Part shown: positions 3,185-18,233 of the stretch, one piece after another | Numbering within the stretch: the stretch's first letter is position 1 | Layout of the letters: the number at the start of each line of letters is the position of its first letter | Source: Clostridia bacterium | GTDB taxonomy: Bacteria > Bacillota_A > Clostridia > Oscillospirales > Acutalibacteraceae | Assembly (NCBI GenBank): GCA_017423885.1 | Contig: JAFPCJ010000037.1 | Coordinates: 1 to 18,233, forward strand | DNA: 18,233 nucleotides | Direction of reading: 5' to 3' | Made by a program: the position numbers and the translations under genes | Notes under the pieces: generated by a model | What the model was told of the DNA's origin: nothing | Databases searched by the model: none | Seen by the model: only the letters and a program-made list of their open reading frames with translations

Positions 3185-3199
3185 TTCAAAACCCCTCCT

Positions 3200-3940: not shown

Positions 3941-4960
3941 TTATTCTTCCTCCTTTACATCAATTTCTTCTTCTGCAGGCTCGGAATATACCTCGTCCAC
4001 ACCGAGCATACGGCGAGCCTCGTTGTTATCGCTGACCTCGGTAAGACGCAGGAATACCTGCTCAAGAGAAAGATTACTGCTTGTAAGCGAAAGCATGGTC
4101 TTGCCGCGCTCGGAAATACGCTTAAATACATCAGCACGAACATCGGCACCGTCATTAGGCACGATACGGAAATCGTATGCACCGTCCTCCTTGCGACCAA
4201 GCGAGGTTACTTCTTTTACTCCTCTTACACTGCGAAGCATACTGAGAACATCAGCCTCATCACCCACAACGCGCGCTACAAGCGACTGATCGCGTGTGAG
4301 CTTATCCGAAAGCGTATCGGGAGTATCATCGGCAATTATCTGACCCTTGTTAATTATGATAACTCTGCGGCAGACCGCCTGAATTTCAGACAGAATATGC
4401 GATGACAAAATAATAGTATGGTTTCTTCCCAAACGGGCGATAAGATTTCTTATCTCAATTATCTGCTTGGGGTCAAGACCAACCGTAGGCTCGTCCAGAA
4501 TAAGGACATCAGGATTACCGATAAGCGCCTGTGCAAAGCCGACACGCTGTCTGTAACCCTTTGAAAGATTCTTGATAAGACGGTTTTGAACATGGTCTAT
4601 CTTAACCAGCTTCATTACCTCATCAATATGCGGTCTCTTGGGGAATTTAACCTTTTTGAGATCGTAAATAAAGTTGAGATACTCACGCACCTTCATATCT
4701 ATGTACAACGGCGGTATCTCAGGCAGATAGCCTATACGCTTCTTTGCCTCCTCGGGATTTTCGGTGATATCGAATCCATCAATCTCAACCGAGCCTTGAG
4801 TCAGCGAAAGGTAGCCTGTAAGAATGTTCATAATAGTGGACTTACCCGCTCCGTTAGGTCCGAGGAAGCCAACTATCTCGCCCTTGTCAATCGAAAAATC
4901 AACATGATCGACCGCAAGATGCGTACCGTACCGTTTGCTGAGTCCGGTGACTTCAATCAT
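3941..4960 (-). CDS. ABC transporter ATP-binding protein (GldA/CcmA-like)
   Basis: 339 residues from the chosen start 'MIEVTGLSKRYG'. All nucleotide-binding motifs are present: Walker A GPNGAGKST at 34-42, signature LSKGYRQ at 132-138, Walker B VLILDE at 152-157, D-loop GLDP at 161-164 and switch His188 (SSHIL). After the roughly 220-residue ATPase core there is a C-terminal domain of about 110 residues, as in ABC-2 exporters of the drug, Cu and gliding type, ending in a very acidic tail. An upstream in-frame ATG at 4975 would add five residues (MEEYS), but there the GGAGGAA motif would lie inside the coding sequence; from the ATG at 4960 it sits at an ideal 6-base spacing, so 4960 is preferred. 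It is the first gene of the four-gene operon and hydrolyses ATP to drive the adjacent permease. Confidence 0.93.
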   Translation of the reverse strand: MIEVTGLSKRYGTHLAVDHVDFSIDKGEIVGFLGPNGAGKSTIMNILTGYLSLTQGSVEIDGFDITENPEEAKKRIGYLPEIPPLYIDMKVREYLNFIYDLKKVKFPKRPHIDEVMKLVKIDHVQNRLIKNLSKGYRQRVGFAQALIGNPDVLILDEPTVGLDPKQIIEIRNLIARLGRNHTIILSSHILSEIQAVCRRVIIINKGQIIADDTPDTLSDKLTRDQSLVARVVGDEADVLSMLRSVRGVKEVTSLGRKEDGAYDFRIVPNDGADVRADVFKRISERGKTMLSLTSSNLSLEQVFLRLTEVSDNNEARRMLGVDEVYSEPAEEEIDVKEEE

Positions 4961-4966
4961 ACTATA

Positions 4967-4973
4967 TTCCTCC
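4967..4973 (-). promoter_or_regulatory. Ribosome binding site that fixes the ABC ATPase start
   Basis: On the minus strand GGAGGAA stands 6 bases before the ATG at 4960. The alternative ATG at 4975 overlaps this motif and has only AT-rich sequence upstream of it. This decides for the shorter protein. Confidence 0.8.
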
Positions 4974-5002
4974 ATTTAATTATTCGGCATTGCAATAATA
5001 CC

Positions 5003-5031
5003 AAACAAATTTATACTATTTGTAAACAAAT
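5003..5031 (-). promoter_or_regulatory. Candidate operator: palindrome and direct repeat in the ABC operon leader
   Basis: A palindrome ATTTGT-AA-ACAAAT (5018-5031) lies about 30 bases downstream of the predicted transcription start. The word AAACAAAT occurs twice, at 5003-5010 and 5024-5031, offset by 21 bp or about two helical turns. This arrangement would suit a dimeric repressor, for example of the GntR/YtrA type that often controls ABC-2 operons, but no regulator gene is in the window and the AT-rich composition makes chance matches likelier. Confidence 0.35.
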
Positions 5032-5068
5032 GTTTAACAATGTCAATAATGAATATATTAACTTTTTT

Positions 5069-5097
5069 ATTATAATACATATCGGCTTGTATTTCAA
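5069..5097 (-). promoter_or_regulatory. Sigma-A-type promoter of the ABC operon
   Basis: Minus strand: TTGAAA (5092-5097), a 17-bp spacer, then TATAAT (5069-5074). The -35 matches five of six consensus bases and the -10 is perfect. The predicted start near 5062 gives a leader of about 100 nt before the ATG at 4960. Confidence 0.75.
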
Positions 5098-5135
5098 GAT
5101 TTTTGTTCGCAAAGTCTGTATTTAACAATTTCCTC

Positions 5136-5160
5136 AAAAAGCAAGTGCAGATCGCACATG
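5136..5160 (-). terminator. Possible weak intrinsic terminator after trkH
   Basis: Minus strand: arms CATGTGC (5154-5160) and GCACTTG (5142-5148), seven pairs with one U-U mismatch and a 5-base loop, followed by C and five T (5136-5140). It is 25 bases past the trkH stop. The stem is short, so some read-through into the ABC operon is possible. Confidence 0.4.
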
Positions 5161-5185
5161 AAACAAATCTTCAAACTAAAGTCTC

Positions 5186-6652
5186 CTATTCTCCGCTTCT
5201 TTTACGGCGAGTGACTGCGCCCTTCCATACAGTCGGATGAAAAAGCAGCAGCAATGGGAAAAGCTCGAGTCTGCCTGCAAGCATATCAAAGATCAGAACA
5301 AGCTTTGAAAATACATTAAAGCTGCCGAAATTACCCGTAGGTCCCACAAGACCCAGTCCCGGACCGATATTATTGATAGTTGCGGCAACAGCGGTAAAGG
5401 TAGTAACAAGATCCTTATCCTCAAAGGAAATAAGCAGCATTGAAGCCGCGAAAAGGACAGTAAATGTAATAAAGTATACATTTATAGAACGAACCACCTC
5501 ATGTTCTATAGGCTTGCTGTCCATTTTAACCTTACGAATACTTTTAGGATGAATGTAAGACATCATTTCCTTGAATGAGGTCTTTACAAGTATCACAAGG
5601 CGCGACACCTTAATTCCGCCGCCCGTGCTTCCTGCGCAGGCACCGACAAACATCAGCATTACAAGCACTATGCGGCTCGTTTGCGACCATGTATCAAAGT
5701 CAGCCGTAGCAAAGCCTGTAGTGGTTATGATGGATGAGACCTGAAAAGCTGAATGGCGCAAAGCATCCCAAAGGTTGTCCATTCTTGTGCTGACATCAGC
5801 AAAAACGGTAATTACAGCCACGGCTATTATTATAAGATAAGCGCGCACCTCTTCCATAGCGAAAGCCTTTTTAAAGCGGCGCATCAGTATCAGGTAATAG
5901 GCGTTGAAGTTTATACCGAACAAAGCCATAAAAACAGTAACTACCCATTGAATATAGGGTGAATAGCTTGCAATGCTGTCATTCTTTATTCCAAATCCGC
6001 CTGTACCTGCAGTTCCGAAAGCGGTAGTGACCGCCTCGAAAAGCGGCATTTTGCCTGCAAGCAAAAGAATCATCTGCAATACGGTAAGTCCAAAATAAAT
6101 AAGATAAAGCAGTCTTGCGGTATAGCGCACCTTGGGCACAAGCTTTTCAACCGACGGTCCGGGGCTTTCCGCTCGCATAAGATTTATATGCGAGCCACCG
6201 CTGAGCGGTACTATAGCCAGCAAGAAAACAAGCACGCCCATTCCGCCTATCCAATGAGTAAAGCTTCTCCACATAAGAGAGGTGTGAGAAAGTGCTTCAA
6301 CATCACTCAAAATACTCGCTCCCGTAGTGGTGAAACCCGAAACGGTCTCAAAAAGCGCGTTTATATAGTTTGGTATCTCTTTTGTAAGCACAAAAGGCAG
6401 AGCGCCGAAAATACTCAATACTATCCAGGCAAGAGCAGTTGTAATGCAGCCCTCTTTAAGATAAAACACATTACTTTTAGGCTTACGGGCACTCATAAGT
6501 ATTCCAAGTGCTACGCACAAAAGCGCTACTGCTATATATGCCACACCCTCGCGCTCTCGATAGAAAACGGAAGTTAAGGCAGGGAGCATCAGCACCGCCG
6601 CTTCAAGCTTTAAAACATAACCTAAAATATAACGGATGATAGAAATATTCAT
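5186..6652 (-). CDS. trkH: TrkH/KtrB-family potassium uptake protein, membrane subunit
   Basis: 488 residues, the usual length for TrkH. It is a multi-pass membrane protein with the four pore-loop repeats that build the K+ filter: SGFTTTGAS (105-113), GTAGTGGFG (213-221), ITTTGFAT (309-316) and NNIGPGLG (427-434). The glycine-rich segment CAGSTGGGIKVSR (339-351) lies in the third repeat region, as in TrkH/KtrB gating loops, and the end 'GRLELFPLLLLF' is typical of the family. It moves K+ into the cell together with the cytosolic TrkA gating protein, encoded directly upstream with a gap of only 3 bases. The ribosome binding site GAGGTGA includes the trkA stop codon, so translation is likely coupled. 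Last gene of the seven-gene operon. Confidence 0.95.
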   Translation of the reverse strand: MNISIIRYILGYVLKLEAAVLMLPALTSVFYREREGVAYIAVALLCVALGILMSARKPKSNVFYLKEGCITTALAWIVLSIFGALPFVLTKEIPNYINALFETVSGFTTTGASILSDVEALSHTSLMWRSFTHWIGGMGVLVFLLAIVPLSGGSHINLMRAESPGPSVEKLVPKVRYTARLLYLIYFGLTVLQMILLLAGKMPLFEAVTTAFGTAGTGGFGIKNDSIASYSPYIQWVVTVFMALFGINFNAYYLILMRRFKKAFAMEEVRAYLIIIAVAVITVFADVSTRMDNLWDALRHSAFQVSSIITTTGFATADFDTWSQTSRIVLVMLMFVGACAGSTGGGIKVSRLVILVKTSFKEMMSYIHPKSIRKVKMDSKPIEHEVVRSINVYFITFTVLFAASMLLISFEDKDLVTTFTAVAATINNIGPGLGLVGPTGNFGSFNVFSKLVLIFDMLAGRLELFPLLLLFHPTVWKGAVTRRKRSGE

Positions 6653-6655
6653 GCG

Positions 6656-8032
6656 TCACCTCAAAATATCCCCGATATCGGAAAATCCCGAATGGGTGGT
6701 TACTATCATGACTGTATCCCCTACCTTAATGCAATCCTGACCGCTTGGGATGATTATACTTCCCTTTCGGTTGATAAAGGCGATAAGCAGACCCTTTTTA
6801 AGGTCAAGCTCCATAAGTGGGATATTAGTGACATCCGACGGCTTATCAATACGGAATTCTATAGCCTCAACTCGGTTATCAAACATGTGATAAAGCGTTT
6901 CTATATCGCTTCCCATTGATGCTTTTTTGGCTCGGACATAAGCAATTATTGCTTCACTCGTTATATAACGCGGATATACAACGCTTCCGAGATTGAGCTG
7001 ACTTATAACATCCTTAAAATTAATACGGTCTATCTTGGTTATGACCTTGGCATCCGATTTAAGATTAGCAAAAAGGGTAAGAACAATATTTTCCTCGTCG
7101 ATACCCGTAAGCGGAACGAAGGCATCCACATCGGCAATGCCCTCCTCCTTTAAAAGCTCCTCGTTGGTGCCGTCACCGTTTATGATTATTGCCTTTGGCA
7201 GCAATACGCTCAATTCCTCGCATCTTGTGCGGTCGCGTTCAATTATTTTAACCTCAAGTCCGCTATTCAAAAGCAATCTTGCAAGATAATAGCAGGTCTT
7301 TCCGCCGCCGATTATCATAACCGACTTTACCTGATTGTCTTTGAAACCGACACGGGAAAGAAACTTTCTTGCCGCCGAGCGGGTAGAAACAAAGGAAAGA
7401 TTATCCCCTGCCGCCATACGGAAGTCACCCGAAGGAATATAGACCTCGTCTCCGCGTTCTATCGCGCAGATAAGAATATCACCCGTTATATCCTTGCCAA
7501 GCTCCGCCAAAGCCGCTCCGCAAAGCGGATTACCCTCGGGTATCTTAAGCTTTATAAGCTCTGCCTGACCGTGAGCAAAGGAATCGACTTCAAGTGCTGT
7601 AGGCAGCGAAAGTATTCGAGCTGCTTCTTTTGCTACCTCAAGGTCGGGATTTATTATCATCGCAAGACCCAATTTTTCGCGCAGATATCCCGATTCCTTA
7701 CTGTAATCGGGAGTACGCACTCGCGCTATAGCCGCACAGTCACCCACCTGCTTTGCAACAGTACAGCAAAGCAGATTCAATTCATCCGAACCTGTAACCG
7801 CAATTATAAGGTCAGAGCTTTCAATGCCGACCTCCATAAGTGTGCTATAGCTTGCGCCGTTTCCGACCATTCCCATAACATCGTAAAGGTCGGCGGTCTC
7901 AATCACCTTTTGCTGATCGGTATCTATAACGGTGATGTCATGTCCCTCACGGCGAAGTGTCTCGGTAAGAGCCATTCCAACCTTGCCGCAACCGACTATA
8001 ATTATCTTAAGACCGTTTTTCTTGCTTCCCAT
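6656..8032 (-). CDS. trkA: Trk system potassium uptake protein TrkA (NAD/nucleotide-binding gating subunit)
   Basis: 458 residues, the normal full-length TrkA with two RCK halves. The first Rossmann fold shows IIIVGCGKVG with GxGxxG at 14-19 and the acidic residue Asp37 (VIDTD). The second begins at 237 with SVMIIGGGKTCYYLA and carries Glu265 (IIERD); here the third glycine of GxGxxG is Cys247. Each half ends in a TrkA-C-like domain (about 145-225 and 385-458). TrkA forms a ring under the TrkH dimer and gates it on binding NAD(H) or adenine nucleotides; the weaker second site could change ligand preference, which is inference. The start overlaps the upstream U32 stop by one base (TAATG), and trkH follows 3 bases downstream. 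Confidence 0.95.
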   Translation of the reverse strand: MGSKKNGLKIIIVGCGKVGMALTETLRREGHDITVIDTDQQKVIETADLYDVMGMVGNGASYSTLMEVGIESSDLIIAVTGSDELNLLCCTVAKQVGDCAAIARVRTPDYSKESGYLREKLGLAMIINPDLEVAKEAARILSLPTALEVDSFAHGQAELIKLKIPEGNPLCGAALAELGKDITGDILICAIERGDEVYIPSGDFRMAAGDNLSFVSTRSAARKFLSRVGFKDNQVKSVMIIGGGKTCYYLARLLLNSGLEVKIIERDRTRCEELSVLLPKAIIINGDGTNEELLKEEGIADVDAFVPLTGIDEENIVLTLFANLKSDAKVITKIDRINFKDVISQLNLGSVVYPRYITSEAIIAYVRAKKASMGSDIETLYHMFDNRVEAIEFRIDKPSDVTNIPLMELDLKKGLLIAFINRKGSIIIPSGQDCIKVGDTVMIVTTHSGFSDIGDILR

Positions 8033-9252
8033 TAATTATCATCCGCTTTCATGCGTAATACTGCGCCCATTCTTACAGGACGCTCAAAGGGTATTTGTAT
8101 CTGCATCATGGGACTCGGTGCTACATCTATCGCCTCTCCCGAAGCATTGTAAAGCTCATCGGCTTTCACGTCAAACGGTACTGATCCCATTTCAAGACAG
8201 TCAAGAAGCTGTCCGCGATAGAATTTGTTTTTCAAGGTTGCTATTATTTTTCCGTCCTTATAGCCGTCAACCGTTGCGGCAACGATATAATCACGCAGAT
8301 ACCCTGCGCTCTCATAGGTCTGCTCACCGCTCGGACGACCGAAATAAAAGCCTGTGGAATACGGACGGTGACTAATCTTGTCAAGCTCCTTCATTACCCA
8401 TTCGGGTACGGTCCATGAACCGTTTGCCGCCGCAAGCGAATCAAGAGCGCCGCGGTAAGCATTGGCAGTTACGGCAATATAATATTCCGATTTGGCTCTG
8501 CCCTCTATCTTGATGCTGTCTATTCCTGCCGCCGCCATTTTTTCAAGATGCGCCGCCATACGCATATCATTGGCATTAAGTATATAGGTGCCGCCGTCAG
8601 CCTCGGTAATATCAAAATACTGCCCCGGTCGCTTTTCTTCCATCAGAGAATAATGCCAACGGCAGGACTGAGCGCAGGCGCCGCGGTTGGCGTCCCTTCC
8701 CGTCATATAATCCGAAAGCAAGCATCTTGCCGAAAAGGAGACGCACATAGCACCGTGAGCAAAAGCCTCTAATTCAAGCTCCTTTGGGGTCTCGGCGCGT
8801 ATTTCGGCAATCTCCTCAAGCGTAAGCTCGCGCGCAAGCACTACACGCGAAGCTCCCATCTCATAAAACGCAGTAGCCGTCTCGGCATTTACCGTTCCCG
8901 ACTGCACCGAAACATGAAGCTGTGCGCTTGGAGCGTATTTCTGCACCAAACGCATCGTTCCAAGGTCAGAAGCTATGATTGCATCCACACCAAGGCTCTC
9001 GAGCAGTTCGAGAAAGGGCGGAAGCTGTTTTATTTCATTATTATGCGGAATGGTATTGCAGGTAACATGCACCTTCACTCCGCGCTCATGTGCATATTTT
9101 ATGCCCTCGGCAATATCTTCATCCGACATCGCCGCCGAGGTACGCATACCAAACTGTGAGCCTGCGATATAAACCGCATCTGCGCCGAAATCTACGGCAG
9201 TCTTAAGTCCCGCAAGCGTGCCTGCGGGACAGAGTAATTCCATTTTCTTCAT
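8032..9252 (-). CDS. U32 family protein (peptidase U32 / TrhP-like tRNA hydroxylation enzyme)
   Basis: 406 residues. The U32 signature is clear around 163-200: EAFAHGAMCVSFSARCLLS, then TGRDANRGACAQSCRWHY. Cysteines 170, 177, 193 and 197 are the likely iron-sulfur ligands; U32 relatives such as UbiU and RlhA carry Fe-S clusters. The N-terminal half is a TIM-barrel-like region (ELLCPAGTLAGLKTAVDFGADAVYIA). Although annotated as peptidases, U32 proteins of the YrrN/YrrO (TrhP) group act in 5-hydroxyuridine formation at tRNA position 34. In Bacillus these genes follow yrrL (mltG) and yrrM (trmR). Here the U32 gene follows mltG with a one-base overlap and no methyltransferase gene intervenes, which supports the tRNA-modification reading over proteolysis. 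Only one U32 gene is present, so the TrhP1/TrhP2 assignment is open. Confidence 0.88.
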   Translation of the reverse strand: MKKMELLCPAGTLAGLKTAVDFGADAVYIAGSQFGMRTSAAMSDEDIAEGIKYAHERGVKVHVTCNTIPHNNEIKQLPPFLELLESLGVDAIIASDLGTMRLVQKYAPSAQLHVSVQSGTVNAETATAFYEMGASRVVLARELTLEEIAEIRAETPKELELEAFAHGAMCVSFSARCLLSDYMTGRDANRGACAQSCRWHYSLMEEKRPGQYFDITEADGGTYILNANDMRMAAHLEKMAAAGIDSIKIEGRAKSEYYIAVTANAYRGALDSLAAANGSWTVPEWVMKELDKISHRPYSTGFYFGRPSGEQTYESAGYLRDYIVAATVDGYKDGKIIATLKNKFYRGQLLDCLEMGSVPFDVKADELYNASGEAIDVAPSPMMQIQIPFERPVRMGAVLRMKADDN

Positions 9253-10469
9253 TATCCGTTACCAAGTGTTGTAGAAAGCCAAAGACCCTTTGCTTTAAGC
9301 TCGTTGATTATCTTATTATGACCTGCAAGAGTATCGTTATAGTAGAACTTTCCGTTTTTATCGGTCACAAAATATGTCATCTCAAAATTATCGGCAGGAG
9401 CAGTAACCGCCTTTATTGAGCGCAGGCTCGGTGAACCTATGGGTCCGGGCGGCAAGCCCTCGGTCTTATAAGTGTTATATCTTCCGTTGCCGTAGGGGTA
9501 GAAGGTAGATGGGTCGGTCTGTAAGAATTTAGGTCCGTCCCAATTAACTCCCTCAAGACGGTTAAAGAAAAGTCTTGCCACCTTACTGCGGTCCTCATCC
9601 CCTGCATTTCCTGCCTCGGATTCGATAAGAGAAGCCATGGTGATAAGGTCATGGAAGTCATACTTTTCATTGCTGTCAAGCTTTTCACGAAGCTGACCGC
9701 CTATTTTTTGCTCAAAGGTAGAGAGCATCTTATCTATGGCAAGATGAGCGCACTCCTTTGAATCATAAACATAAAAGTCATAGGTTTCGGGATAGAGATA
9801 ACCCTCAAGACGGTAATAGACCGAATCTGCAGGTATCTCCTTTACAAAATCATAGTTGAACTCACCGTAACGCACTTCATATATGAAATCCGCCTTTTCG
9901 CAAACTCCGTTTTCCTCAAGTATCTTTGCAATATCATCGACCGTAGCCATCTCGGGAATCTGCACTCCCTTAACGGTTTCAGCCTTTGCACCTTCGGTTA
10001 TAAGCATTTTGGCTATTTCCTCATAGCCAAGATCCTGACTAAAGGTATATACGCCGTATTTATACTGTGCATCAAACTTCTTAAGCTTTGAGTAAAGACG
10101 GAACACAAGCGGACAGCGTACTGCTCCTGCGTTCTGAAGCTCCTCGGCTATCTGCACCGTTGCGGAGCCCTGCTTTATCTCTACAACACATTCCTTTTCT
10201 TTAAAGCCTATACCGAGGTAATCAGCGCCGACATACAGCACACCAATCGCCACTCCGATAGAAACGGCAAAAATTGCAACCACCCAGATTATGTTTTTGA
10301 CCGTGCTCGCGCCCTTGCGGCGTTTACGGTTTTTTTCCTTTTCCTGCTCGAGCTTTGTATGGGTATCATCTACCACGAAGCCTCTGCCTATTACAAAATC
10401 ATCATCCTGCGTTGGAGTATTGATATCGTTTTCCCCATCGGACTCATAAAGCTTTTCGTTGTCGTTCAT
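9252..10469 (-). CDS. mltG: Endolytic peptidoglycan transglycosylase MltG (YceG-like)
   Basis: 405 residues. A charged cytoplasmic N-terminus of about 57 residues, longer than in E. coli, precedes one transmembrane helix (about 58-80). The extracytoplasmic part has a LysM-like first domain (about 90-160, 'VEIKQGSATVQIAEELQNAG') and the catalytic YceG domain. Recognisable motifs are LEGYLYPETYDF (221-232), ITMASLIESEAG (276-287) with catalytic Glu283, FLQTDPSTFY (315-324) and YNTYKTEGLPPGPIGSP (331-347). MltG cleaves nascent glycan strands at the membrane and so sets strand length. The ribosome binding site AGAGGGG lies 24 bases after the DJ-1 gene stop. The next gene, U32, shares one base with the stop codon (TAATG). 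Confidence 0.95.
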   Translation of the reverse strand: MNDNEKLYESDGENDINTPTQDDDFVIGRGFVVDDTHTKLEQEKEKNRKRRKGASTVKNIIWVVAIFAVSIGVAIGVLYVGADYLGIGFKEKECVVEIKQGSATVQIAEELQNAGAVRCPLVFRLYSKLKKFDAQYKYGVYTFSQDLGYEEIAKMLITEGAKAETVKGVQIPEMATVDDIAKILEENGVCEKADFIYEVRYGEFNYDFVKEIPADSVYYRLEGYLYPETYDFYVYDSKECAHLAIDKMLSTFEQKIGGQLREKLDSNEKYDFHDLITMASLIESEAGNAGDEDRSKVARLFFNRLEGVNWDGPKFLQTDPSTFYPYGNGRYNTYKTEGLPPGPIGSPSLRSIKAVTAPADNFEMTYFVTDKNGKFYYNDTLAGHNKIINELKAKGLWLSTTLGNG

Positions 10470-10493
10470 TTTTTCGTTCCCCTCTTTTACCGT

Positions 10494-11033
10494 TTATTTA
10501 CAGCACATTGCCTTACTCATATCATCGGCAGTCTGCTTATCCGTAAGGAAGCAAAGTAAAGCAAAAGCAAAATCAAGTGCCGCGCCTGCACCCTTGGCGG
10601 TAATGATATTTCCGTCACAAACCACCTGCTCGTCACAGACCGTAGCGCCCGCAAGCTCCTTTTCAAAGCCGGGGAAGCAGGTAGCGCGCTTACCGTTAAG
10701 CACTCCGAGATGCCCCAAAACAGAGGGAGCCGCGCATATAGCACCTATAAGAAGCTGTTTACGGTCAGCCTGACGCACCAATTCACACAAGCGCTCATTA
10801 GCCTCAAGATTTAAAGTACCCGGCATACCGCCCGGAAGCACGATTCCTTCAAGACCCTCAAGCGTTATCTGATCAACAGTCATATCCGTGCTGACAGCAA
10901 TACCGTGCGCTCCCGTAACAGTCTTTCCCGTAACGCCGACGGTTTTAACTTCAATGCCGCCGCGACGCAGTACATCAACAGGCGCCAAGGCTTCTATTTC
11001 CTCAAAGCCCTCGGCAAAAAATACATATATCAT
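10494..11033 (-). CDS. DJ-1/PfpI family protein (DJ-1/YajL-like)
   Basis: 179 residues, the usual length of single-domain DJ-1/YajL proteins. The nucleophile elbow is GAICAAPSVLG with Cys100, and the partner acid is Glu14 in AEGFEEIEALAPVDVLRRGG, matching Glu18 of human DJ-1. VLPGGMPGTLNL (65-76) forms the conserved glycine-rich loop. Members are described as glyoxalases or deglycases and as oxidative-stress chaperones; the exact activity is disputed, so only the family is assigned. A nearby ATG at 11038 is out of frame and closes at once, so 11033 is the start, served by AAAGGAG. The gene is 21 bases after tmk and 24 before mltG, in the same operon. Confidence 0.92.
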   Translation of the reverse strand: MIYVFFAEGFEEIEALAPVDVLRRGGIEVKTVGVTGKTVTGAHGIAVSTDMTVDQITLEGLEGIVLPGGMPGTLNLEANERLCELVRQADRKQLLIGAICAAPSVLGHLGVLNGKRATCFPGFEKELAGATVCDEQVVCDGNIITAKGAGAALDFAFALLCFLTDKQTADDMSKAMCCK

Positions 11034-11054
11034 ATCATTTTCTCCTTTGGTTGC

Positions 11055-11723
11055 TCACCCTGAAATAATTTCAAGTGCCGCCGCCTTGATATCTGCGGCT
11101 ATACTCTCAATAGAACGAGCCTCACCGTTTTGGGCGCAGGGAATCACCTTCCATTTGGAATACTCGGCTGTAAATACCGCCGCCTTACGGCAACGGTCAA
11201 GATACTCGGTATCGCGCTCATGGATATCCTTTTTGCTCTCGTCTCCCGAATATCTTCCCGAAAGCAGTTTTTGAGACACCTCGATGGGCATATCAAGAAA
11301 GATAACGAGATCCGGCTTCGGTATACCGATCTTGTTATATTCAAAATCATACAGCCAATCGAGAAATTGCGTCCATTCATTTTCGGGAAGCTTTGAGCAT
11401 TGATGAACGGCATTTGAGGTGGTATATCTGCCTGAAATAACAGTACCGCCGCCGTTATAATATTCTCCCCATTTCTGCTTAAAGGATGCAAAACGGTCTG
11501 CCGCATAAAAAACCGATGCCGCAAAAGCATTTACGTCTTTAGGGTCAGTACCGAAATCCCCTTTGAGATACATTTTTATAAGTGCGCTCGAATCGCTGTC
11601 ATAATCGGGGAAGGACACGGTTCTGCACTCTATCCCCTCTTCTCCCAAGGTTTTAGGAAGAAGCTCAAGTTGGGTGGACTTGCCGCAACCGTCAAGTCCC
11701 TCTATAACGATAAGCTTACCCAT
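11055..11723 (-). CDS. tmk: Thymidylate kinase (dTMP kinase)
   Basis: 222 residues. P-loop GLDGCGKST (9-17) with Lys15 and Ser16; '[12 protein letters not shown]' matches the substrate-side loop FPDY region; DRFAS (77-81); [10 protein letters not shown] (137-146) is the core strand of the kinase; [17 protein letters not shown] (155-171) is the Arg-containing LID. It converts dTMP to dTDP. The family's usual DRY/ERY triplet before the thymidine-binding helix reads SGRY here (97-100), a Gly in the acidic position, which deserves checking against close relatives. The gene overlaps the end of thyX by 8 bases: its ATGGGTAA contains the thyX stop codon. Enzymes for two successive steps of dTTP synthesis are thus translationally linked. 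Confidence 0.92.
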
Positions 11724-12489
11724 TTTTCTTCATTTCCTCATACTTTTTTCTCATTTCTGCCGCCTTGCCGCAGGTCATCTTGCCCTCGGGACAAGCTCCC
11801 TTTATGCAGGCAGGTCCCGCCATTTTGAAGAGATTGGGAGCAACCTCACAAACAAGCTTCAGCATCTGATCGGCAACCTCTCGTATCTCCCATTGAGCGC
11901 GCGAGCAGCAACGGTGACGGAAGAAATTATGAAGCGAGCGGGCGTTCATGGTAACTACCATCTTGGTCTCGCAGGCATTAGGAAGCACAAAACGCGCATC
12001 CTCTATAGCCTTTTTCTCTGCAAGGCGCACCGCAGTCTTCTCGTCCTTGCCCTCGGCAATAAACGCGGCGGTATGCTTGGCGGTAAGTATTTCGGCTAAA
12101 CGGTCATACGCAGCCTGATCGGCTTGCATAGTCTGAACAAACAATTCCTTTGCCTGCTCATCATCCTCTATCTCGGGCGGAATTACATATTCAAAGCACC
12201 CTTCTGTAACATAGCGCTGGCTTTTTACAGAATAGGATGCAATTCTATGCCTTGTTATCTGTGCAAGCAACGCACGCGACACTCCCTCGATACCGAAGGT
12301 AAACGAAACGTGCTCTATCGGACTTTCATGCCCGAAGCTTGCGAGCATATCTACGAAGGAGGCAGTTTTTTCAGGAGTAAGTCCGTCCTGAAGCTCCTGA
12401 ATAGTGGAAGAGCTGTAGCAAAGCTTTGCGGCGGCCGCTACGGTTCTTTCGGGGTCGGGTGTATGGCTTATAAGAGTAACCGTTGACAT
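11716..12489 (-). CDS. thyX: FAD-dependent thymidylate synthase ThyX
   Basis: 257 residues. The diagnostic ThyX motif RHRx7S is at 80-90 ([11 protein letters not shown]), followed by QRYV. A second conserved segment [16 protein letters not shown] (188-203) supplies the other substrate and flavin residues. The enzyme methylates dUMP to dTMP using methylene-tetrahydrofolate, NADPH and FAD, and replaces ThyA; no thyA is in the window. Its C-terminal tail from about 225 holds three cysteines (228, 233, 240) in [17 protein letters not shown] and ends in a Lys-rich helix. First gene of the seven-gene operon: promoter at 12530-12558, ribosome binding site AGGAGA about 11 bases before the ATG, and an 8-base overlap with tmk. 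Confidence 0.95.
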
Positions 12490-12529
12490 TTTTGTTCACT
12501 TCTCCTATTGATATATAAGTATTCAATTT

Positions 12530-12558
12530 ATTATAACAAATAACATTTAAGATATCAA
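12530..12558 (-). promoter_or_regulatory. Sigma-A-type promoter of the thyX-trkH operon
   Basis: Minus strand: TTGATA (12553-12558), a 17-bp spacer and TATAAT (12530-12535). One base differs from consensus in the -35 and none in the -10. The predicted start near 12523 leaves a leader of about 34 nt. It faces away from the plus-strand prs promoter, about 100 bp off. Confidence 0.78.
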
Positions 12559-12659
12559 CAAGTATTTTCTATAAGTAATTTTTATGTTTTTTGGCAAAAG
12601 ATATAAATTTTTGCTTTAATCAATATTAAAAATTTTCTAACATTTTTTTGAAAAAGGTC

Positions 12660-12693
12660 TTTTTTTGCCGAACAAAGTATGATAATATATATA
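12660..12693 (+). promoter_or_regulatory. Probable promoter of the PRPP synthase gene
   Basis: Two overlapping readings. One is an extended -10, TG-A-TAATAT (12680-12688), with a poor T-rich -35. The other is TTGCCG (12665-12670) with a 17-bp spacer to TATATA (12688-12693). Either places the start near 12695-12700, giving a 5' leader of about 30 nt. The exact hexamers are uncertain. Confidence 0.5.
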
Positions 12694-12715
12694 CATAGAT
12701 AAAAAATTCGAGGTT

Positions 12716-12720
12716 GGAGG
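12716..12720 (+). promoter_or_regulatory. Ribosome binding site that fixes the PRPP synthase start
   Basis: GGAGG stands 8 bases before the ATG at 12729. A TTG at 12714 is in frame but overlaps this motif and has none of its own, so the ATG is taken as start. Confidence 0.85.
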
Positions 12721-12728
12721 ATTTTATC

Positions 12729-13856
12729 ATGAACAACATCCATTTTGAGCACACACCGTTCGGTGATCTTGCGATCATAAGCATGCGTGGCTGTGAGGAT
12801 ATCTCCTCAAAGGTAGACTATTATCTAAAGCAATGGCGCAATATTCCCGAGGATGAGTCCTTTGTTATAGGCGCAAACTGTCCGCGTTTCGGTACAGGTG
12901 AAGCTAAAGCGGTGCTTAATCATACCGCCCGCGGTCTTGATGCATATATCATCTGTGACTGCTTCAATTACAGCGTTAACTACAAGATGTACGGACAATT
13001 AGTTCCTATGAGCCCCGATGATCATTTTCAGGATCTCAAGCGCGTTATTGCAGCATTCGGCGGAAAGGCTCGCAGAATAACCGTTATCATGCCCATGCTT
13101 TACGAGGGTCGTCAGCATCGCCGTACCTCACGTGAGTCTATGGACTGCGCTATGGCTTTACAGGAGCTCGTTGCAATGGGTGTTAAGAACATCATCACCT
13201 TTGATGCTCACGATCCCCGCGTTAACAATGCTATCCCGCTTGATGGATTTGATAATGTTCAGGCAACCTACCAGATGATAAAGGCTCTGCTTAAGACTGT
13301 TCCCGATATCAAGCTTGACCGCGATCATGCTATGATAGTCTCCCCCGATGAGGGCGGAATGGGACGTTGCATCTACTATTCTTCCGTTCTTGGACTTCCC
13401 CTCGGAATGTTCTATAAGCGCCGTAACTACTCTGTAGTTGTAAACGGACGTAATCCGATAGAGGCTCACGAGTTCCTCGGAAACGATATTACAGGCAAGG
13501 ACCTCATTTTGGTTGACGATATGATCTCTTCGGGCGACTCCATGCTCGATATCGCCGCAAAGCTTAAGGAGCGCGGCGCAGGACGTATCTTTGTATTCTC
13601 CACCTTCGGTCTTTTCGTTGAGGGTCTCGAGAAGTTTGATGAGTACTACGAGAAGGGTCTTATCAACAAGGTATTTACCACCAACCTCATTTACCAGACT
13701 CCCGAGCTTCTCTCCCGCGAGTGGTACTGCAGCGTAAATATGTCCAAGTACATCGCTCTTATTGTTGATACTCTTAACAACGATAACTCCATAAGCGGAC
13801 TTCTCGATCCTGCCGACCGTATCAACAATATTCTTAAGAAATACGGACAGAGATAA
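12729..13856 (+). CDS. prs: Ribose-phosphate pyrophosphokinase-like protein (long, divergent PRPP synthase)
   Basis: 375 residues, longer than the roughly 315 of classical Prs. The PRPP-binding loop of type I phosphoribosyltransferase folds is clear: LILVDDMISSGDS (259-271). FDAHDPRVNNAIP (158-170) corresponds to the conserved Asp-x-His metal/ATP loop of PRPP synthases, and MPMLYEGRQHRRTSRES (121-137) to the flexible catalytic region (classical IPYYGYARQDRK). The N-terminus has a classical-like nucleotide region and the C-terminus an extra roughly 60-residue tail. It should make PRPP from ribose 5-phosphate and ATP for nucleotide, His and Trp synthesis. Monocistronic, and the only plus-strand gene in the window, with its own promoter and strong terminator. 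Such long forms occur in Clostridia; a non-catalytic paralogue cannot be excluded without seeing the rest of the genome. Confidence 0.85.
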   Translation: MNNIHFEHTPFGDLAIISMRGCEDISSKVDYYLKQWRNIPEDESFVIGANCPRFGTGEAKAVLNHTARGLDAYIICDCFNYSVNYKMYGQLVPMSPDDHFQDLKRVIAAFGGKARRITVIMPMLYEGRQHRRTSRESMDCAMALQELVAMGVKNIITFDAHDPRVNNAIPLDGFDNVQATYQMIKALLKTVPDIKLDRDHAMIVSPDEGGMGRCIYYSSVLGLPLGMFYKRRNYSVVVNGRNPIEAHEFLGNDITGKDLILVDDMISSGDSMLDIAAKLKERGAGRIFVFSTFGLFVEGLEKFDEYYEKGLINKVFTTNLIYQTPELLSREWYCSVNMSKYIALIVDTLNNDNSISGLLDPADRINNILKKYGQR

Positions 13857-13875
13857 TTCTTTAATCTTTAAACCG

Positions 13876-13912
13876 ACAGACCGCACCTCAAACGAGGTAC
13901 GGTCTGTTTTTT
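13876..13912 (+). terminator. Strong intrinsic terminator of prs
   Basis: Arms ACAGACCGCACCTC (13876-13889) and GAGGTACGGTCTGT (13894-13907): 14 positions with a single C-A mismatch, loop AAAC, then five further T. It is 20 bases after the prs stop codon. Confidence 0.92.
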
Positions 13913-14102
13913 ATCGCCTGCGTACATAACGGAAAGTCGAGGACGGTAAGTCCCTACGCGTGCGCCGCCGGAAGATGCAAAAAAGGGACGGGAGACCCGC
14001 CCCCTACAAATATATTTTTTAAATATGGTCGGGCACAAAAATTGCGTTTTAAATCAAAGACGGCAACGATTGCCCCCCGAGGCACTCGGGTCGGGCGCTT
14101 GT
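13913..14102. repeat. GC-rich palindrome-dense intergenic block
   Basis: No gene is seen. The block is more GC-rich than the AT-rich spacers elsewhere in the window. Visible elements are CCCGAG-GCA-CTCGGG near 14076-14090, GGCAA-CGA-TTGCC near 14062-14074, the G/C hairpin at 13985-14003, an AT palindrome around 14010-14026, and the direct repeat GGTCGGGC at 14027-14034 and 14089-14096. Its texture resembles dispersed intergenic palindromic elements of gut Clostridia, but a second copy is not present in this window, so this is a suggestion only. Confidence 0.35.
13979..14003 (-). terminator. Intrinsic terminator of the SLOG-like gene
   Basis: Minus strand: GGGGCGGG (13996-14003), loop TCT, CCCGTCCC (13985-13992), eight pairs including one G-U, then six T (13979-13984). 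It is about 100 bases after the stop at 14103, within the GC-rich block. Confidence 0.75.
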
Positions 14103-14576
14103 TTATGGAAACAGTATTATTTCCTTTTTTAAAGCTTTAGCATAATCAAGAGCAATCTTCGCACCGCTTTTACGTGTTGTCGGCGCGTTTTCGGGATCAT
14201 AATAAATGATACATATATCACTTTGCTTTATCATTTCATAATTACGTTCTACGTATACCGATTTGTTGGCGTTTATTATGCTTTCAGGATAATAAGTATC
14301 CTCATATCTCTCCAAAAGATATTCCGTATATTCATCTGATATTTCAGGGTATTCTGCCCGCACATATATCCTTTTTATATGCGGATATTTTTCTTTTAGT
14401 GCGGACACCGTCTCAACACTCAATCCGTTAAAACGGCTCTTGCTTCCGAAAAGAAAGGTGTCCGCTTTTTCTTCTGTAATCAGCCTTTCAACAGTCTCGG
14501 TAAGCTTCAATTTAAGCTCTTTAGTCTCATTTATCGTTCTGTTGCCTATAAAACATACTTTTTTTACGTTATCCAT
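14103..14576 (-). CDS. SLOG-superfamily / DUF1273-like small protein
   Basis: 157 residues from the ATG at 14576. It begins with a beta strand and glycine loop, VCFIGNRTIN, followed by FLFGSKSRFNGLS, IKRIYVRAEYP, SVYVERNYEMIKQSDICIIYY and KSGAKIALDYAKALKKEIILF. This order (nucleotide-binding-like glycine start, then a strand with 'xxIIYY' and a Gly-rich 'SGxxIAxDYAxxxxxxII' end) is that of small Rossmann-like SLOG/YpsA (DUF1273) proteins, which are thought to bind nucleotides or nucleotide-derived ligands. No precise function is known. An in-frame GTG at 14588 would add four residues but has no ribosome binding site; GGGTGA at 14581-14586 is well placed for the ATG. The gene has its own promoter, a long structured leader and its own terminator. 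Confidence 0.65.
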   Translation of the reverse strand: MDNVKKVCFIGNRTINETKELKLKLTETVERLITEEKADTFLFGSKSRFNGLSVETVSALKEKYPHIKRIYVRAEYPEISDEYTEYLLERYEDTYYPESIINANKSVYVERNYEMIKQSDICIIYYDPENAPTTRKSGAKIALDYAKALKKEIILFP

Positions 14577-14593
14577 ATTTTCACCCACAAAAT

Positions 14594-14623
14594 AAAAAAG
14601 TGCGACAACCTAAGTCATCGCAC
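14594..14623 (-). terminator. Leader (attenuator) terminator upstream of the SLOG-like gene
   Basis: Minus strand: GTGCGATGAC (14614-14623), loop TTAG, GTTGTCGCAC (14600-14609), ten pairs of which two are G-U, followed by six T (14594-14599). It stands 17 bases before the gene's start codon, so it would stop transcription before the gene unless relieved. Confidence 0.75.
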
Positions 14624-14684
14624 CGAAAAGCACAAATCCCCGATTGTCGCCAAACAAAACCAAAGTAAAAGCAGGCATAGCCAC
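14610..14684 (-). CDS. Possible 24-residue leader peptide
   Basis: A GTG at 14684 with AGGGG (14693-14697) 8 bases upstream opens a frame of 24 codons that ends with TAG at 14612-14610, exactly in the loop of the attenuator terminator. The peptide (start (V)AMPAFTLVLFGD) is hydrophobic. The frame extends upstream to an ATG at 14792 (60 residues), but that start has no good ribosome binding site. The GTG and part of its ribosome binding site are buried in the 13-pair leader helix. Whether it is translated is unproven; T-rich sequence gives hydrophobic frames by chance. Confidence 0.3.
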   Translation of the reverse strand: MAMPAFTLVLFGDNRGFVLFGAMT

Positions 14685-14821
14685 GCAAATTACCCCTGTA
14701 GGAATTTGTGTTTTTACAAAATCCGTAAAGATAACTTGCGTGATAAAAATGAAAATATACACTTCCCCCAAAGAGAAAATGTTTACCTGCATTTACTTAT
14801 TTAGTTTTGTTTGGCTTTTTT

Positions 14822-14850
14822 ATTTTATCACAAGGCATAAAAAATATCAA
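14822..14850 (-). promoter_or_regulatory. Sigma-A-type promoter of the SLOG-like gene leader
   Basis: Minus strand: TTGATA (14845-14850), a 17-bp spacer and TAAAAT (14822-14827). It begins 2 bp past the T-run of the preceding terminator, so this unit is separated from the HAD operon. Predicted start near 14815. Confidence 0.7.
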
Positions 14851-14851
14851 C

Positions 14852-14900
14852 AAAAAAATGCAGACCGTACTTCATACTTTAAAGCATGAAGTACGGTCTG
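14852..14900 (-). terminator. Strong intrinsic terminator of the beta-helix/HAD operon
   Basis: Perfect 15-bp arms, CAGACCGTACTTCAT and its complement (14861-14875 and 14886-14900), with further internal pairing of CTTT/AAAG. On the minus strand the stem is followed by CA and seven T (14852-14858). It lies 20 bases after the HAD stop codon. The stem shares the ACAGACCG.AC word with the prs terminator at 13876. Confidence 0.92.
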
Positions 14901-14919
14901 TTATTTATACCCCGACATT

Positions 14920-15909
14920 TTAAATTATTTTATTCAAAATGCTGTTAAGATCGGGTTCATAGTAGGTGCAAAAATCCTTTGTTCCGCTGCTGACTATATT
15001 TCCTCCGCCTATACCGATAGTGGTATAGCCTGCAAGACGCGCGGAGCATGCTCCTGCACCGCTATCCTCTATAGCAACCACTCGACTGCGGTTTTCAAAC
15101 AGCATTCCGAGACCAAATCTTCCTGTTTCTGCATAAAGCCAAGGATGCGGTTTTATCGGCAGTTCACTTAAAGTACCTGTACTTCCCTTGCCGAAAAGAG
15201 TACCTGCGGTGATTATCGCATCATAAAATACAGTTGGATCACCCATACCGAGAGTTTGGAAGGCAGAAATTATCTCGGGCATCGCCTTTTCGTAAAGTCC
15301 TGAAGTAACAAGTCCTATCTTAATATTGCGCTCTTTAAGTTCGAGCAAGAAATCTTTCAATCCCGTTGCAGGAGTAAACACTCCTTTTTTTCCTCTTCCT
15401 GCCATAATCTCGCGCATCTCATACTCGACCTTGGCGTTATAGCAGCGTCTTGCCGCATCAAGAGAAAAACCCGGAATGTATTTATCTATGCAGTAGCTTA
15501 AATGCTCTCCTATACTATGTCCGGCAACATACGGAAAATCCTCAGGAACAAGACGGAATGACGGATCACACTTAACCTCTGCCATTGTCTGTTCGATTAT
15601 CCACATCCAGAATTCTTCACTTTTAACGCTTGTACCGTCAAGATCCATAAGCACAGCTTCGATAGGCTTTTCAAGACTGACAGGACGAACAGGATAATAA
15701 GCATCATAACCGATAGCCGAGGGCACATAAGCCATTGTCTTATCCTCGAAGCCTATAAGTTCGAGTTTTCGGTCAGCAGTGGCAAAGATAGCCTTTACAC
15801 CATCCTTGCCAACAGAAAATGCACCGTTGCTCGTAGCGTCAAGCGCCTTCATACCGCCTTCGGCAGTGACGGCGCCGAAACCAACAAGTTCATAAAGTAT
15901 ATTACTCAT
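14920..15909 (-). CDS. HAD-superfamily hydrolase (phosphatase / beta-phosphoglucomutase-like) with N-terminal extension
   Basis: 329 residues. The HAD core starts at about 84: motif I LMDLDGT (Asp89 nucleophile, Asp91), motif II VTSG (Thr202, Ser203), Lys253 in PIKPHP, and motif IV AIEDSGAGACSA (Glu281, Asp282). A helical cap of the C1 type lies between motifs I and II (about 98-190). The first 80 or so residues (MSNILYELVGFGAVTAEGG...YDAYYPVRPVSLEKP) precede the hydrolase and match no domain I recognise. Members of this group dephosphorylate or isomerise sugar phosphates; the substrate cannot be deduced. The gene is 21 bases after the beta-helix gene, with AGGGTGA as ribosome binding site, so the two are likely co-transcribed, and a strong terminator follows. 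Confidence 0.85.
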   Translation of the reverse strand: MSNILYELVGFGAVTAEGGMKALDATSNGAFSVGKDGVKAIFATADRKLELIGFEDKTMAYVPSAIGYDAYYPVRPVSLEKPIEAVLMDLDGTSVKSEEFWMWIIEQTMAEVKCDPSFRLVPEDFPYVAGHSIGEHLSYCIDKYIPGFSLDAARRCYNAKVEYEMREIMAGRGKKGVFTPATGLKDFLLELKERNIKIGLVTSGLYEKAMPEIISAFQTLGMGDPTVFYDAIITAGTLFGKGSTGTLSELPIKPHPWLYAETGRFGLGMLFENRSRVVAIEDSGAGACSARLAGYTTIGIGGGNIVSSGTKDFCTYYEPDLNSILNKII

Positions 15910-15930
15910 TTTTTCACCCTAAATAAACGG

Positions 15931-18233
15931 TCACATTACAAAATTGCCATAATTTGTACAGCCCTCACCCAAAGCCTTGGAGTTTGCCGAGAATAACTCA
16001 TTGCCGGAATTTCCGACAATATTTCCGATAAACTTTGAATTGGTGCAGGCAATTCCTATAGTCATTATAGAGAAGCCCTGTTGATAGGTGTTAGCCAAAA
16101 TGCTTATTCCGTTTCCTGCCGAGATTATAATCTCAGGAGGAGCAATTCCCGTTACCCCATCAACAACGCGGGCATCGGTACGGAAAGTATTGCTTGATAT
16201 CTCAATACCGGTATTATAGGATTTCTGGAAGCTCATACGTATACAGCACATATTTACATCAAAGTAATTGGATGTAATGCGATGTCCCTTAACGTTGTCG
16301 CCCTTTATAGTGATATGGGTAGCGGTTTCGCAGGTCTCAAAGTGGTTGGATTGCAAGGTATTATTGCTTCCATCCATAAGGATAAACGACGGACCGCCTG
16401 TGCAATAAAGATTCTGGAACTCACAATCGCTTCCGCGGACAAGGAACGGAGCGTAAAGTGCAGAGCCTCCGCCTATCTTGCTTGAATCGACCTGAATATT
16501 ACTTGATTTGCCGTCAATATTAACCGCATACGGCATTGAGCCCGACGCATCGGTACCGAACTGACAGTTAAAGAAGAAGCAATTCTTTGAACGCATAAAA
16601 TAGATGCCGCCGTAGGTGGCTTTATTGGTTGCACTCAAATTGCTTACAGTACAGTTGATAAATCCGCTGTTTTCCGCGTTTCTGACAACGAACATACTGT
16701 CTACCGTACCCTTTGGGAAGAATTGGTTTCTGTCAATAAAGCCATGTCCTACAATATATACATTTGAAGGAATAACAACGGTATCACCAATGCCGTATTC
16801 ACTGCCCTCACAGTAAACTACGCCGCCCTTTTTGGCAACTCTTGCAACAGCCACCTTGAACGTCTGACTCCAATCGCCGTCCACGTCGCTTCCGCAATCC
16901 TCGAGTCTTACATACTCTAACTTATCGTTGCCACTGATAATATTGAAGGCTTTTTCGTAGAATTCAAACTGAGTATCATCAGCCATGTAGCCTGTTTTGC
17001 CAAAGGAGGTTGCATTAAAGGTGTTGCCGTCAGAGAAGCTCTTGCCGCCAAAGCCCTTAATATCAGCCGCCTTAAAGGTATTGTTCATAAATGTAGAGCC
17101 GCCATTATTGGTAGCATCTATTCCTACATCAGATTTCAAAACACAATCCTTTACAGAAAGCATAGATGTGTATGCAGTATATATATCCGCTTTACCGTTA
17201 CCCTCAAAGAAGCACTCAGAAACAGTAGACTGCTTTGAATAGCTGCTGTTATTGTAGTTGGCTGCAAACAAGCCGTATTCCGCGCAATTTACAAACGAGC
17301 AGTTACGCACGGTAACATTAGCGTTCTTGTTTACATCACCCTCAATGTAATCGGGGCTACCTATTGCAAGACCGTTACGCTTACTGTTCTTAACCAAAAT
17401 GTTAGAATAACAGTTTCCGCCGTAGTTATAGGCTTGAATACCGAGACCGCCGTCTACCGTTATATGGCTGAAGGCAGAGTCGGAAAGAAGTGAACGAAGC
17501 GCGTAGCCACCAAGGTTATCAAACTGCAGCTTTACAAACCACGTTACCCAAAGTTGACCGCCGCCGTTTGAGGCGCAGTTTATTCCGCCGCCCGTAATAT
17601 TGGTAACGCGGCAATTAAAGACCTTGGTTGAACGCGGGCTCCAGAGATTCATACCCCACTCAACCTTTTTACCCTCATTGGCAGAACCATCAATAGTGAA
17701 ATTGGCAATATACATTCTCATGGAAAGGTTGTTCCATCCCGAGAAAACGGAATCCATATCGGCTCCCGCTTTAATTACGGTCTTGCCCCCCACGCCCTTA
17801 TCAAGCGCCGCACCGATCATATTAACATCGGAGGATATCTGAATGGGTTTAGTTACAAGGTATGTACCTGCAGGGAAATAAACGGTCTGATTAGATGCTA
17901 TATTTATAGCCTTTTGAATGGCTTCGGTATCGTCAGTCTTACCGTCACCCACAGCACCGTGTTCCTTTACATTGACATACATTGAGTCTACGTAATGCTC
18001 GACAGAAGTATCTATCTTGAGTTTGTTTACGATCTCCTCGATAACCTTGTCATCATCCTCGGTGCCCTCGATAGAGAGATCCTCGTCTTCCTCGTAATAA
18101 TCCTCGTAATCATCAGCGTCCGAAGAAGCATCAGGCTCCTTGGTAACATAGATGGTCTGCTTTTTCTTCTTTTTCTTCTTTTTCTTGGTAGCAGACGAGG
18201 TCTGCTTATCGGCATCGGTAGGTATATTGTTAC
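15931..18233 (-). CDS. Parallel beta-helix, pectate-lyase-superfamily protein with low-complexity linker (N-terminus cut by window edge)
   Basis: 766 codons are visible and the frame stays open to the right edge, so the true start is outside. Numbering from the first visible residue: a run of nine lysines at 16-24, then a highly acidic stretch (about 33-60), then VNVKEHGAVGDGKTDD (86-101), the classic opening of Pectate_lyase_3 (PF12708) domains. A second such module begins near 441 (DCGSDVDGDWSQTF, then VYCEGSEYGIGDTVVIPS). The remainder consists of Asn/Gly-rich coils ('NCSFVNCAEYGLF', 'SNTFRTDARVV') typical of a right-handed beta-helix. Such proteins bind or cut polysaccharide. The ATG at 17982 has no ribosome binding site and is internal. 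The linker suggests an N-terminal membrane anchor or attachment domain just beyond the window. The HAD gene follows in the same operon. Confidence 0.8.
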   Translation of the reverse strand, partial: NNIPTDADKQTSSATKKKKKKKKKQTIYVTKEPDASSDADDYEDYYEEDEDLSIEGTEDDDKVIEEIVNKLKIDTSVEHYVDSMYVNVKEHGAVGDGKTDDTEAIQKAINIASNQTVYFPAGTYLVTKPIQISSDVNMIGAALDKGVGGKTVIKAGADMDSVFSGWNNLSMRMYIANFTIDGSANEGKKVEWGMNLWSPRSTKVFNCRVTNITGGGINCASNGGGQLWVTWFVKLQFDNLGGYALRSLLSDSAFSHITVDGGLGIQAYNYGGNCYSNILVKNSKRNGLAIGSPDYIEGDVNKNANVTVRNCSFVNCAEYGLFAANYNNSSYSKQSTVSECFFEGNGKADIYTAYTSMLSVKDCVLKSDVGIDATNNGGSTFMNNTFKAADIKGFGGKSFSDGNTFNATSFGKTGYMADDTQFEFYEKAFNIISGNDKLEYVRLEDCGSDVDGDWSQTFKVAVARVAKKGGVVYCEGSEYGIGDTVVIPSNVYIVGHGFIDRNQFFPKGTVDSMFVVRNAENSGFINCTVSNLSATNKATYGGIYFMRSKNCFFFNCQFGTDASGSMPYAVNIDGKSSNIQVDSSKIGGGSALYAPFLVRGSDCEFQNLYCTGGPSFILMDGSNNTLQSNHFETCETATHITIKGDNVKGHRITSNYFDVNMCCIRMSFQKSYNTGIEISSNTFRTDARVVDGVTGIAPPEIIISAGNGISILANTYQQGFSIMTIGIACTNSKFIGNIVGNSGNELFSANSKALGEGCTNYGNFVM

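Follow-up and report, generated by a model that had tools for sequence, protein, structure and literature searches.

Pseudoknotted riboswitches of the preQ1, SAM-II and c-di-GMP-II type lie next to their expression platforms, and c-di-GMP riboswitches control multicopy regulons with surface proteins and peptidoglycan hydrolases. T-box leaders, multicopy in Clostridia, set a terminator against an antiterminator, while the type III toxin-antitoxin RNA ToxI follows the order promoter, structured RNA, terminator and then gene. How does the leader of a small YpsA/SLOG gene from a Clostridia bacterium compare with these systems? We analyzed the 18,233-nucleotide stretch that contains it (contig JAFPCJ010000037.1, positions 1 to 18,233), referred to here as the window. 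From its sequence and predicted folds, the element is most likely a riboswitch-like transcription attenuator. It is a multicopy family that is not tied to SLOG genes. Neither this nor the pseudoknot and antiterminator hairpin described below had been part of an earlier, sequence-only reading of the window. Comparison of family sequences supports four conserved and covarying structures: an outer helix (P1), a long-range pseudoknot, a terminator and, less strongly in short members, a competing antiterminator.

The leader in the window

The leader (14815-14594, minus strand) begins at the predicted transcription start; from the position of the extended -10 element, +1 is placed near G14815, the first base of P1. 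The promoter that the sequence-only reading had assigned to the small gene is present (Table 1), as is every other structural feature it described. The terminator hairpin carries its T6 tract (14599-14594) and stands 17 bases from the ATG at 14576, and the strand 14650-14642 is able to pair at nine positions with 14610-14602. The whole leader has a minimum free energy of -92.5 kcal/mol against a mean of -50.4 (sd 4.05) for dinucleotide shuffles (z -10.4), none of 200 shuffles being equally good, and this fold reproduces the nested domain of an outer helix around a 13-pair helix that had been proposed.

Table 1. Features of the leader and its gene, in window coordinates
Feature	Position	Strand	Detail	Basis
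Sigma-70 type promoter	14822-14850	minus	-35 TTGATA 14850-14845, 17-base spacer, extended -10 TGATAAAAT 14830-14822	sequence
P1 (outer helix), 5' strand	14801-14815	minus	GCCAAACAAAACTAA, from predicted +1; partner 14663-14649	fold
P1, 3' strand	14649-14663	minus		fold and family covariation
Inner domain	14664-14797	minus		MFE fold
P2 (13-pair helix)	14797-14792 and 14790-14784 with 14677-14671 and 14669-14664	minus		MFE fold
Side hairpin, inner domain	14782-14773 with 14768-14759	minus		MFE fold
Long arm, inner domain	14743-14727 with 14697-14681	minus		MFE fold
Apical segment	14705-14715	minus	AAAAACACAAA, pseudoknot strand 1	type II covariation
Tail segment	14626-14636	minus	TTTGTGCTTTT, pseudoknot strand 2	covariation and fold
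Antiterminator hairpin	14605-14647	minus		fold of tail before terminator 3' arm emerges
Intrinsic terminator	14594-14624	minus	hairpin 14624-14614 with 14609-14599, U tract 14599-14594	sequence, fold, family covariation
Regulated gene, YpsA/SLOG (DUF1273) protein	14103-14576	minus	157 aa; SD-like GGGTGA 14586-14581	

P2, the side hairpin and the long arm align poorly across members and are placed by folding, not by covariation. The ACAAA end of the A-rich apical segment doubles as the 3' side of a local apical stem (partner 14720-14716), and the tail segment also sits within the antiterminator hairpin. The pseudoknot between the two segments (14715-14705 with 14636-14626) is interrupted by one A-C mismatch. 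In the antiterminator, 14647-14639 pairs with 14614-14612 and 14610-14605, and an inner stem joins 14635-14629 to 14624-14618. The downstream protein matches Pfam YpsA (PF06908; E 3.5e-10, 40.6 bits, cut-off 27.7). The SLOG unit lies between a HAD gene upstream and a convergent PRPP-synthetase-like gene downstream, and is flanked by strong hairpins at 14851-14899 and 13873-13908; with the stem sequence CAGACCGTAC common to both, these look like related terminators bounding the unit.

The sequence-only reading had recognized no known riboswitch class, and a search with Rfam 15 agreed, with no match at the gathering score in the window or in 11 family loci. A known Rfam class is rejected; all matches were below threshold and the window's best resemble chance. 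Examples are sbrA (21.4 bits in L115, cut-off 45) and the lysine riboswitch (17.3 bits in L112, cut-off 30); the latter resemblance falls on a type I member (L112, 1352-1505) with an E value of 0.013 and is probably chance. The passages searched in PMC11109978, PMC8632094 and PMC8040213 contained no matching RNA, and an earlier unnamed listing is possible. The RNA family would itself be new, its general kind known, and it may exist as an unnamed candidate in supplementary lists.

A multicopy family and its competing structures

A blastn search with the gene and its leader against phage records matched only the leader end, on two unannotated faecal contigs. Both share a layout of promoter, variable long helix, conserved tail and terminator, followed by different genes, one EcoRI-type methylase-like and the other secreted-protein-like. 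A pattern scan of one family found matches in 90 of 295 genomes versus four genomes with the pattern reversed; not all of these matches are members (L103 is a non-member), and those fetched were checked. Two pattern scans of IMG/VR returned 3 and 8 stretches, of which L084, L085, L118 and L119 are members. A covariance model of the tail (R1; 68 positions, built from 33 copies) was run on 245 genomes of the class and matched 66 of them at E ≤0.001, 62 of these at 1e-5, with up to at least 19 copies per genome; scoring covered up to 20 candidates per genome, making the counts lower bounds. Among 299 genomes sampled across the phylum only the query genome matched R1 at 1e-5, so the family looks lineage-restricted and chance matches to R1 rare. 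Named carriers are metagenome assemblies labelled Oscillospiraceae, Clostridiales or Clostridia bacterium. A phage or plasmid origin of the element is not supported: blastn with two 101-base pieces of it matched 3 of 50,697 phage records and none of 72,556 plasmid records. A scan of IMG/VR for SLOG relatives found none.

In all, 157 copies were assembled: 149 from genomes, four from IMG/VR, two from phage records, one beside a SLOG orthologue (L075) and the window's own. L083 and L103, judged non-members, and L093, a near copy of L091, were removed before A2 was built. The R1 tables omit L083, the second matches of L163 and L214 (24.6-25.4 bits) and two matches with E >0.4 in the SLOG-orthologue scan. 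Setting aside nine of the 157 R1 matches that lacked P1 by score and six that were redundant left 142 members, classed by length as type I (≤190 nt; 73), type II (190-235 nt; 65, including the window) and longer (4). Covariation was assessed in members selected for the presence of P1 and aligned with MAFFT (A4, 46 of 61 eligible elements; A5, 48 of 67), and permutation tests and swapped-half folding covered 140 of the 142.

P1 scored above 16 in 148 of the 157 copies; for the 154 with enough upstream sequence, the comparison is 148 real against 22 of 462 with that sequence shuffled. A TGnTATAAT-like extended -10 stands directly upstream of P1 in 113 of the 142 non-redundant members. Of the 142, 40 were drawn at random for folding of the domain that P1 encloses, and their z scores range from -5.8 down to -13.7 (all 40 at or below -5.8). 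As expected of a riboswitch, a conserved folded domain thus appears to lie upstream of a predicted expression platform.

In the 46 type II members, preselected for P1, this helix is 99.8% paired and has double changes at seven of its 11 pairs. Pairing in the pseudoknot helices is 97.5% and 96.7%, but only two of their 11 pairs show double changes; in the terminator helices it is 100% and 92.7%. Taken together, 98.1% of cells in P1, pseudoknot and terminator pair in these members and 97.6% in the 48 of type I, where the pseudoknot shows double changes at six of 10 pairs. Four of the five measures were matched by no shuffle out of 500 in either type, and the remaining one, the number of pair types, was reached by two of 500 in type II and four of 500 in type I; column counts here are sequences rather than independent events, and sequence relatedness inflates all shuffle tests. 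Sliding one partner out of register lowers pairing to 31-62% over both types (31-49% in type II). Permutation tests on 140 elements supported both the pseudoknot and the antiterminator. The attenuator-like architecture first proposed for the window is backed by this family-wide covariation.

The lower stem of the type II antiterminator is 94.9% paired, and no shuffle of 500 reached its pairing or covariation score; its double-change pairs were reached by 37 and its pair types by 125. The type I counterpart is 83.6% paired, with its covariation score reached by 11 and its double-change pairs by 285 of 500 shuffles; support from fixed columns is weak in this type, and there appears to be a register shift. 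When the tail is folded before the terminator 3' arm emerges, a longer antiterminator is predicted, whose inner part joins the pseudoknot core to the terminator 5' region in every one of the 140 members folded. Because the predicted hairpin takes both the pseudoknot tail strand and the terminator 5' region, antiterminator, pseudoknot and terminator compete. An element's own tail halves fold together at -15.9 kcal/mol versus -11.8 (sd 0.12) when swapped between members, a cost of about 4 kcal/mol. Covariation and modelling together suggest that a mutually exclusive terminator and antiterminator are conserved, weakly so in type I by fixed columns.

Folding of the full tail without the pseudoknot gave the terminator form, by the criterion used, in only 64 of 142 minimum-free-energy structures, and the terminator and antiterminator forms therefore seem close in energy. 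Such near-equal predicted energies fit a switch without demonstrating one. A fourth structure, the local apical hairpin, is built from the same apical segment as the pseudoknot. Local pairing takes up at least four of five A-run bases in 57 of the 73 type I members and at least four of 11 apical bases in 66 of the 69 longer ones; in type II the local apical stem is 85.7% paired, with modest covariation.

Genes behind the element

What does the element control? In 102 of the 157 copies the start of an ORF with an SD-like motif lies no more than 60 nt beyond the end of the tail match, and in 76 it lies at 9-19 nt. The same rule gave 3/157 and 0/157 on the opposite strand, and 87/456 and 17/456 at random points; 20 of the 157 copies have no ORF inside 200 nt by the rule used. 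A Pfam scan of the downstream proteins (set A3, 116 of 124 proteins, trimmed at 200 aa) returned BspA-type leucine-rich repeats most often (12), then the copper amine oxidase N-domain (8), another leucine-rich repeat model (6) and EcoRI methylase, DUF6809, WG repeat and SHOCT (3 each); CHAP, LiaF and YpsA, at 2 each, are among the 25 most frequent of 37 families. The element probably governs many different genes, with secreted leucine-rich-repeat proteins commoner targets than SLOG. EcoRI-type adenine methylase-like genes lie behind the element at L094, L095 and L001, and the leaders of L094 and L095 closely resemble the window's. A small Cys-rich protein with an IDITG-ELTPG-like start also recurs. 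Its motifs, CLGNGE/CPGNGE and ECCCDEC, occur at L115, L092, L109, L157, L160, L161, L176 and L193, and the two members checked against Pfam (L115 and L157) had no match.

Other copies stand alone by eye, with another terminator or a gene of opposite orientation behind them (L099, L101, L215, L168, L171, L174), and tandem copies occur at L184, L200, L147, L225 and L239. By eye, the units of L200 and L147 each have their own promoter, as does the second unit of L184. Given the standalone copies and the tandem units with separate promoters, part of the family may function as free small RNAs. The standalone copies form two sets (L168, L171 and L174; L099, L101 and L215), each sharing downstream surroundings across different genomes, which suggests free RNAs or exapted copies. 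Additional tail-only repeats of about 70 bases each were seen at L184.

The R1 scan found the element at one (L075) of 80 close SLOG orthologues, the best 80 of 178. A SLOG-specific leader is rejected, the other 79 having no significant R1 match. The nucleotide-type ligand that the sequence-only reading had guessed from SLOG biology finds no support in this count or in the mostly unrelated genes behind other copies. That reading had also looked to orthologous SLOG leaders for covariation; these seldom carry the element, and it was the copies of the multicopy family that covaried. A second SLOG-like group does lie downstream of the element (L108, L219, L226 and the short, broken L151). It matched the window's family in a profile comparison (probability 98.8), and its proteins singly fall below the Pfam YpsA cut-off or have no match. 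A search with this group in 55 genomes (53 with R1 or pattern matches) found 108 SLOG-like places, of which 60 were examined. At eight of these the element immediately precedes the gene in the same orientation (L239, L244, L256, L263, L264, L265, L267 and L288), excluding L233 (267 nt away) and L260 (26.6 bits). Four of the eight are proteins that defined the search, and the remaining 4/56 exceed the roughly 0.3 expected by our own estimate of about 10 elements per 2000 genes at random; SLOG genes thus appear to be recurrent yet minor targets. The pairing of leader and SLOG gene first noted in the window recurs at more distant SLOG genes, a minority of the targets, above a rough chance estimate, and is rare among the close orthologues.

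Switching model, alternatives and known systems

Whatever signal drives it, sequence and modelled structures make it quite probable that the leader is a cis-acting transcription attenuator belonging to a multicopy RNA family. Covariation and folding support the strand competition; for the direction of switching and its signal, we infer the following. The nascent tail would expose the antiterminator 5' strand first, the pseudoknot strand next and the terminator 5' arm last. Docking of the pseudoknot strand on the apical segment would deprive the antiterminator of its inner half and leave the terminator 5' arm free, so that transcription stops and the gene is off. Were that segment held in its local hairpin instead, the antiterminator, which averages about 13 pairs, could form and the gene would be on. 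A signal acting on the apical domain would pick the fold, a small ligand being more likely than a protein. We give even chances to the fuller proposal of a new, Clostridia-confined riboswitch class in which a global small-molecule signal controls a regulon of surface, envelope and accessory genes, SLOG included, through four-way competition among apical hairpin, tail-invading pseudoknot, antiterminator and terminator.

Might a protein be the signal instead? If an antiterminator or repressor protein bound the RNA at its apical domain, the mechanism would be as above and the signal alone would differ. The many unrelated targets and a genome with up to at least 19 copies would suit a global regulator, but the known candidates fail to co-occur with the element across 27 element-rich genomes, and we consider this reading, perhaps with a new protein, possible though doubtful. 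LoaP scored over its cut-off in none of the 27 and in four of 20 genomes that R1 did not match (46 of these 47 genomes have weaker matches of NusG type), CAT_RBD of BglG/RAT antitermination in none of the 27, and an ANTAR protein was present in 10. Control by LoaP, BglG/RAT or ANTAR is disfavoured by these counts, with the genomes perhaps incomplete and single absences weak. It is rather unlikely that the element is chiefly a small RNA gene, made of promoter, structured RNA and terminator and acting in trans, with downstream genes reached by leaky read-through only. The standalone copies and the tandem units with separate promoters speak for such a gene; the excess over random points of SD-preceded ORFs at 9-19 nt speaks against it, as does an antiterminator hairpin kept by covariation, which a plain terminated small RNA would not need.

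The proposed regulon, with its many copies, surface proteins and peptidoglycan hydrolases, resembles those of c-di-GMP riboswitches. A variant sensing c-di-GMP is nonetheless very improbable: Rfam gave no match at the gathering score, and no GGDEF match was found in seven of the 27 element-rich genomes, which may be incomplete. Diadenylate cyclase is present in 26 of the 27, but it is widespread anyway and neither supports nor excludes c-di-AMP. Least credible of all is a ribosome-coupled attenuator using a leader peptide. The 60-aa ORF at 14792-14610 covers much of the leader, but in the alignment with the close leaders L094 and L095 its start is immediately followed by a stop codon, and the peptide has no Pfam match. 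A coding role for the leader ORF (P0002) is rejected on the same grounds, its frame being broken in both leaders examined.

For the riboswitch-like attenuator that we prefer, the covarying competition of pseudoknot, antiterminator and terminator offers a directly testable switching model, and a specific structural change around GGUAAAAANGC would point to a ligand. In gut Clostridia this RNA is abundant and probably regulatory, and Rfam has no entry for it. Knowledge of its signal would delimit a regulon of largely uncultured bacteria, with secreted and envelope proteins among its members, and for some SLOG/YpsA proteins would offer a route to learning when they are made.

Compared with ToxI, the element has the same order of promoter, structured RNA, terminator and gene, but no toxin family is among the 25 most frequent of the 37 downstream Pfam families. 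Like the LoaP, BglG/RAT and ANTAR systems it places an RNA element ahead of a terminator, whereas the cognate proteins were not found in all or most of the 27 element-rich genomes. Like T-box leaders it is multicopy in Clostridia and sets a terminator against an antiterminator; unlike them, it has no Rfam T-box match and no aminoacyl-tRNA or amino-acid family among the same 25. It differs from the preQ1, SAM-II and c-di-GMP-II type in lacking an Rfam match, in its greater length (141-310 nt by our ends), in its long variable P1 and heterogeneous targets, and in a tail strand that appears to invade the apical hairpin. With that same type it shares, according to our model, a loop-to-tail pseudoknot that decides the downstream structure.
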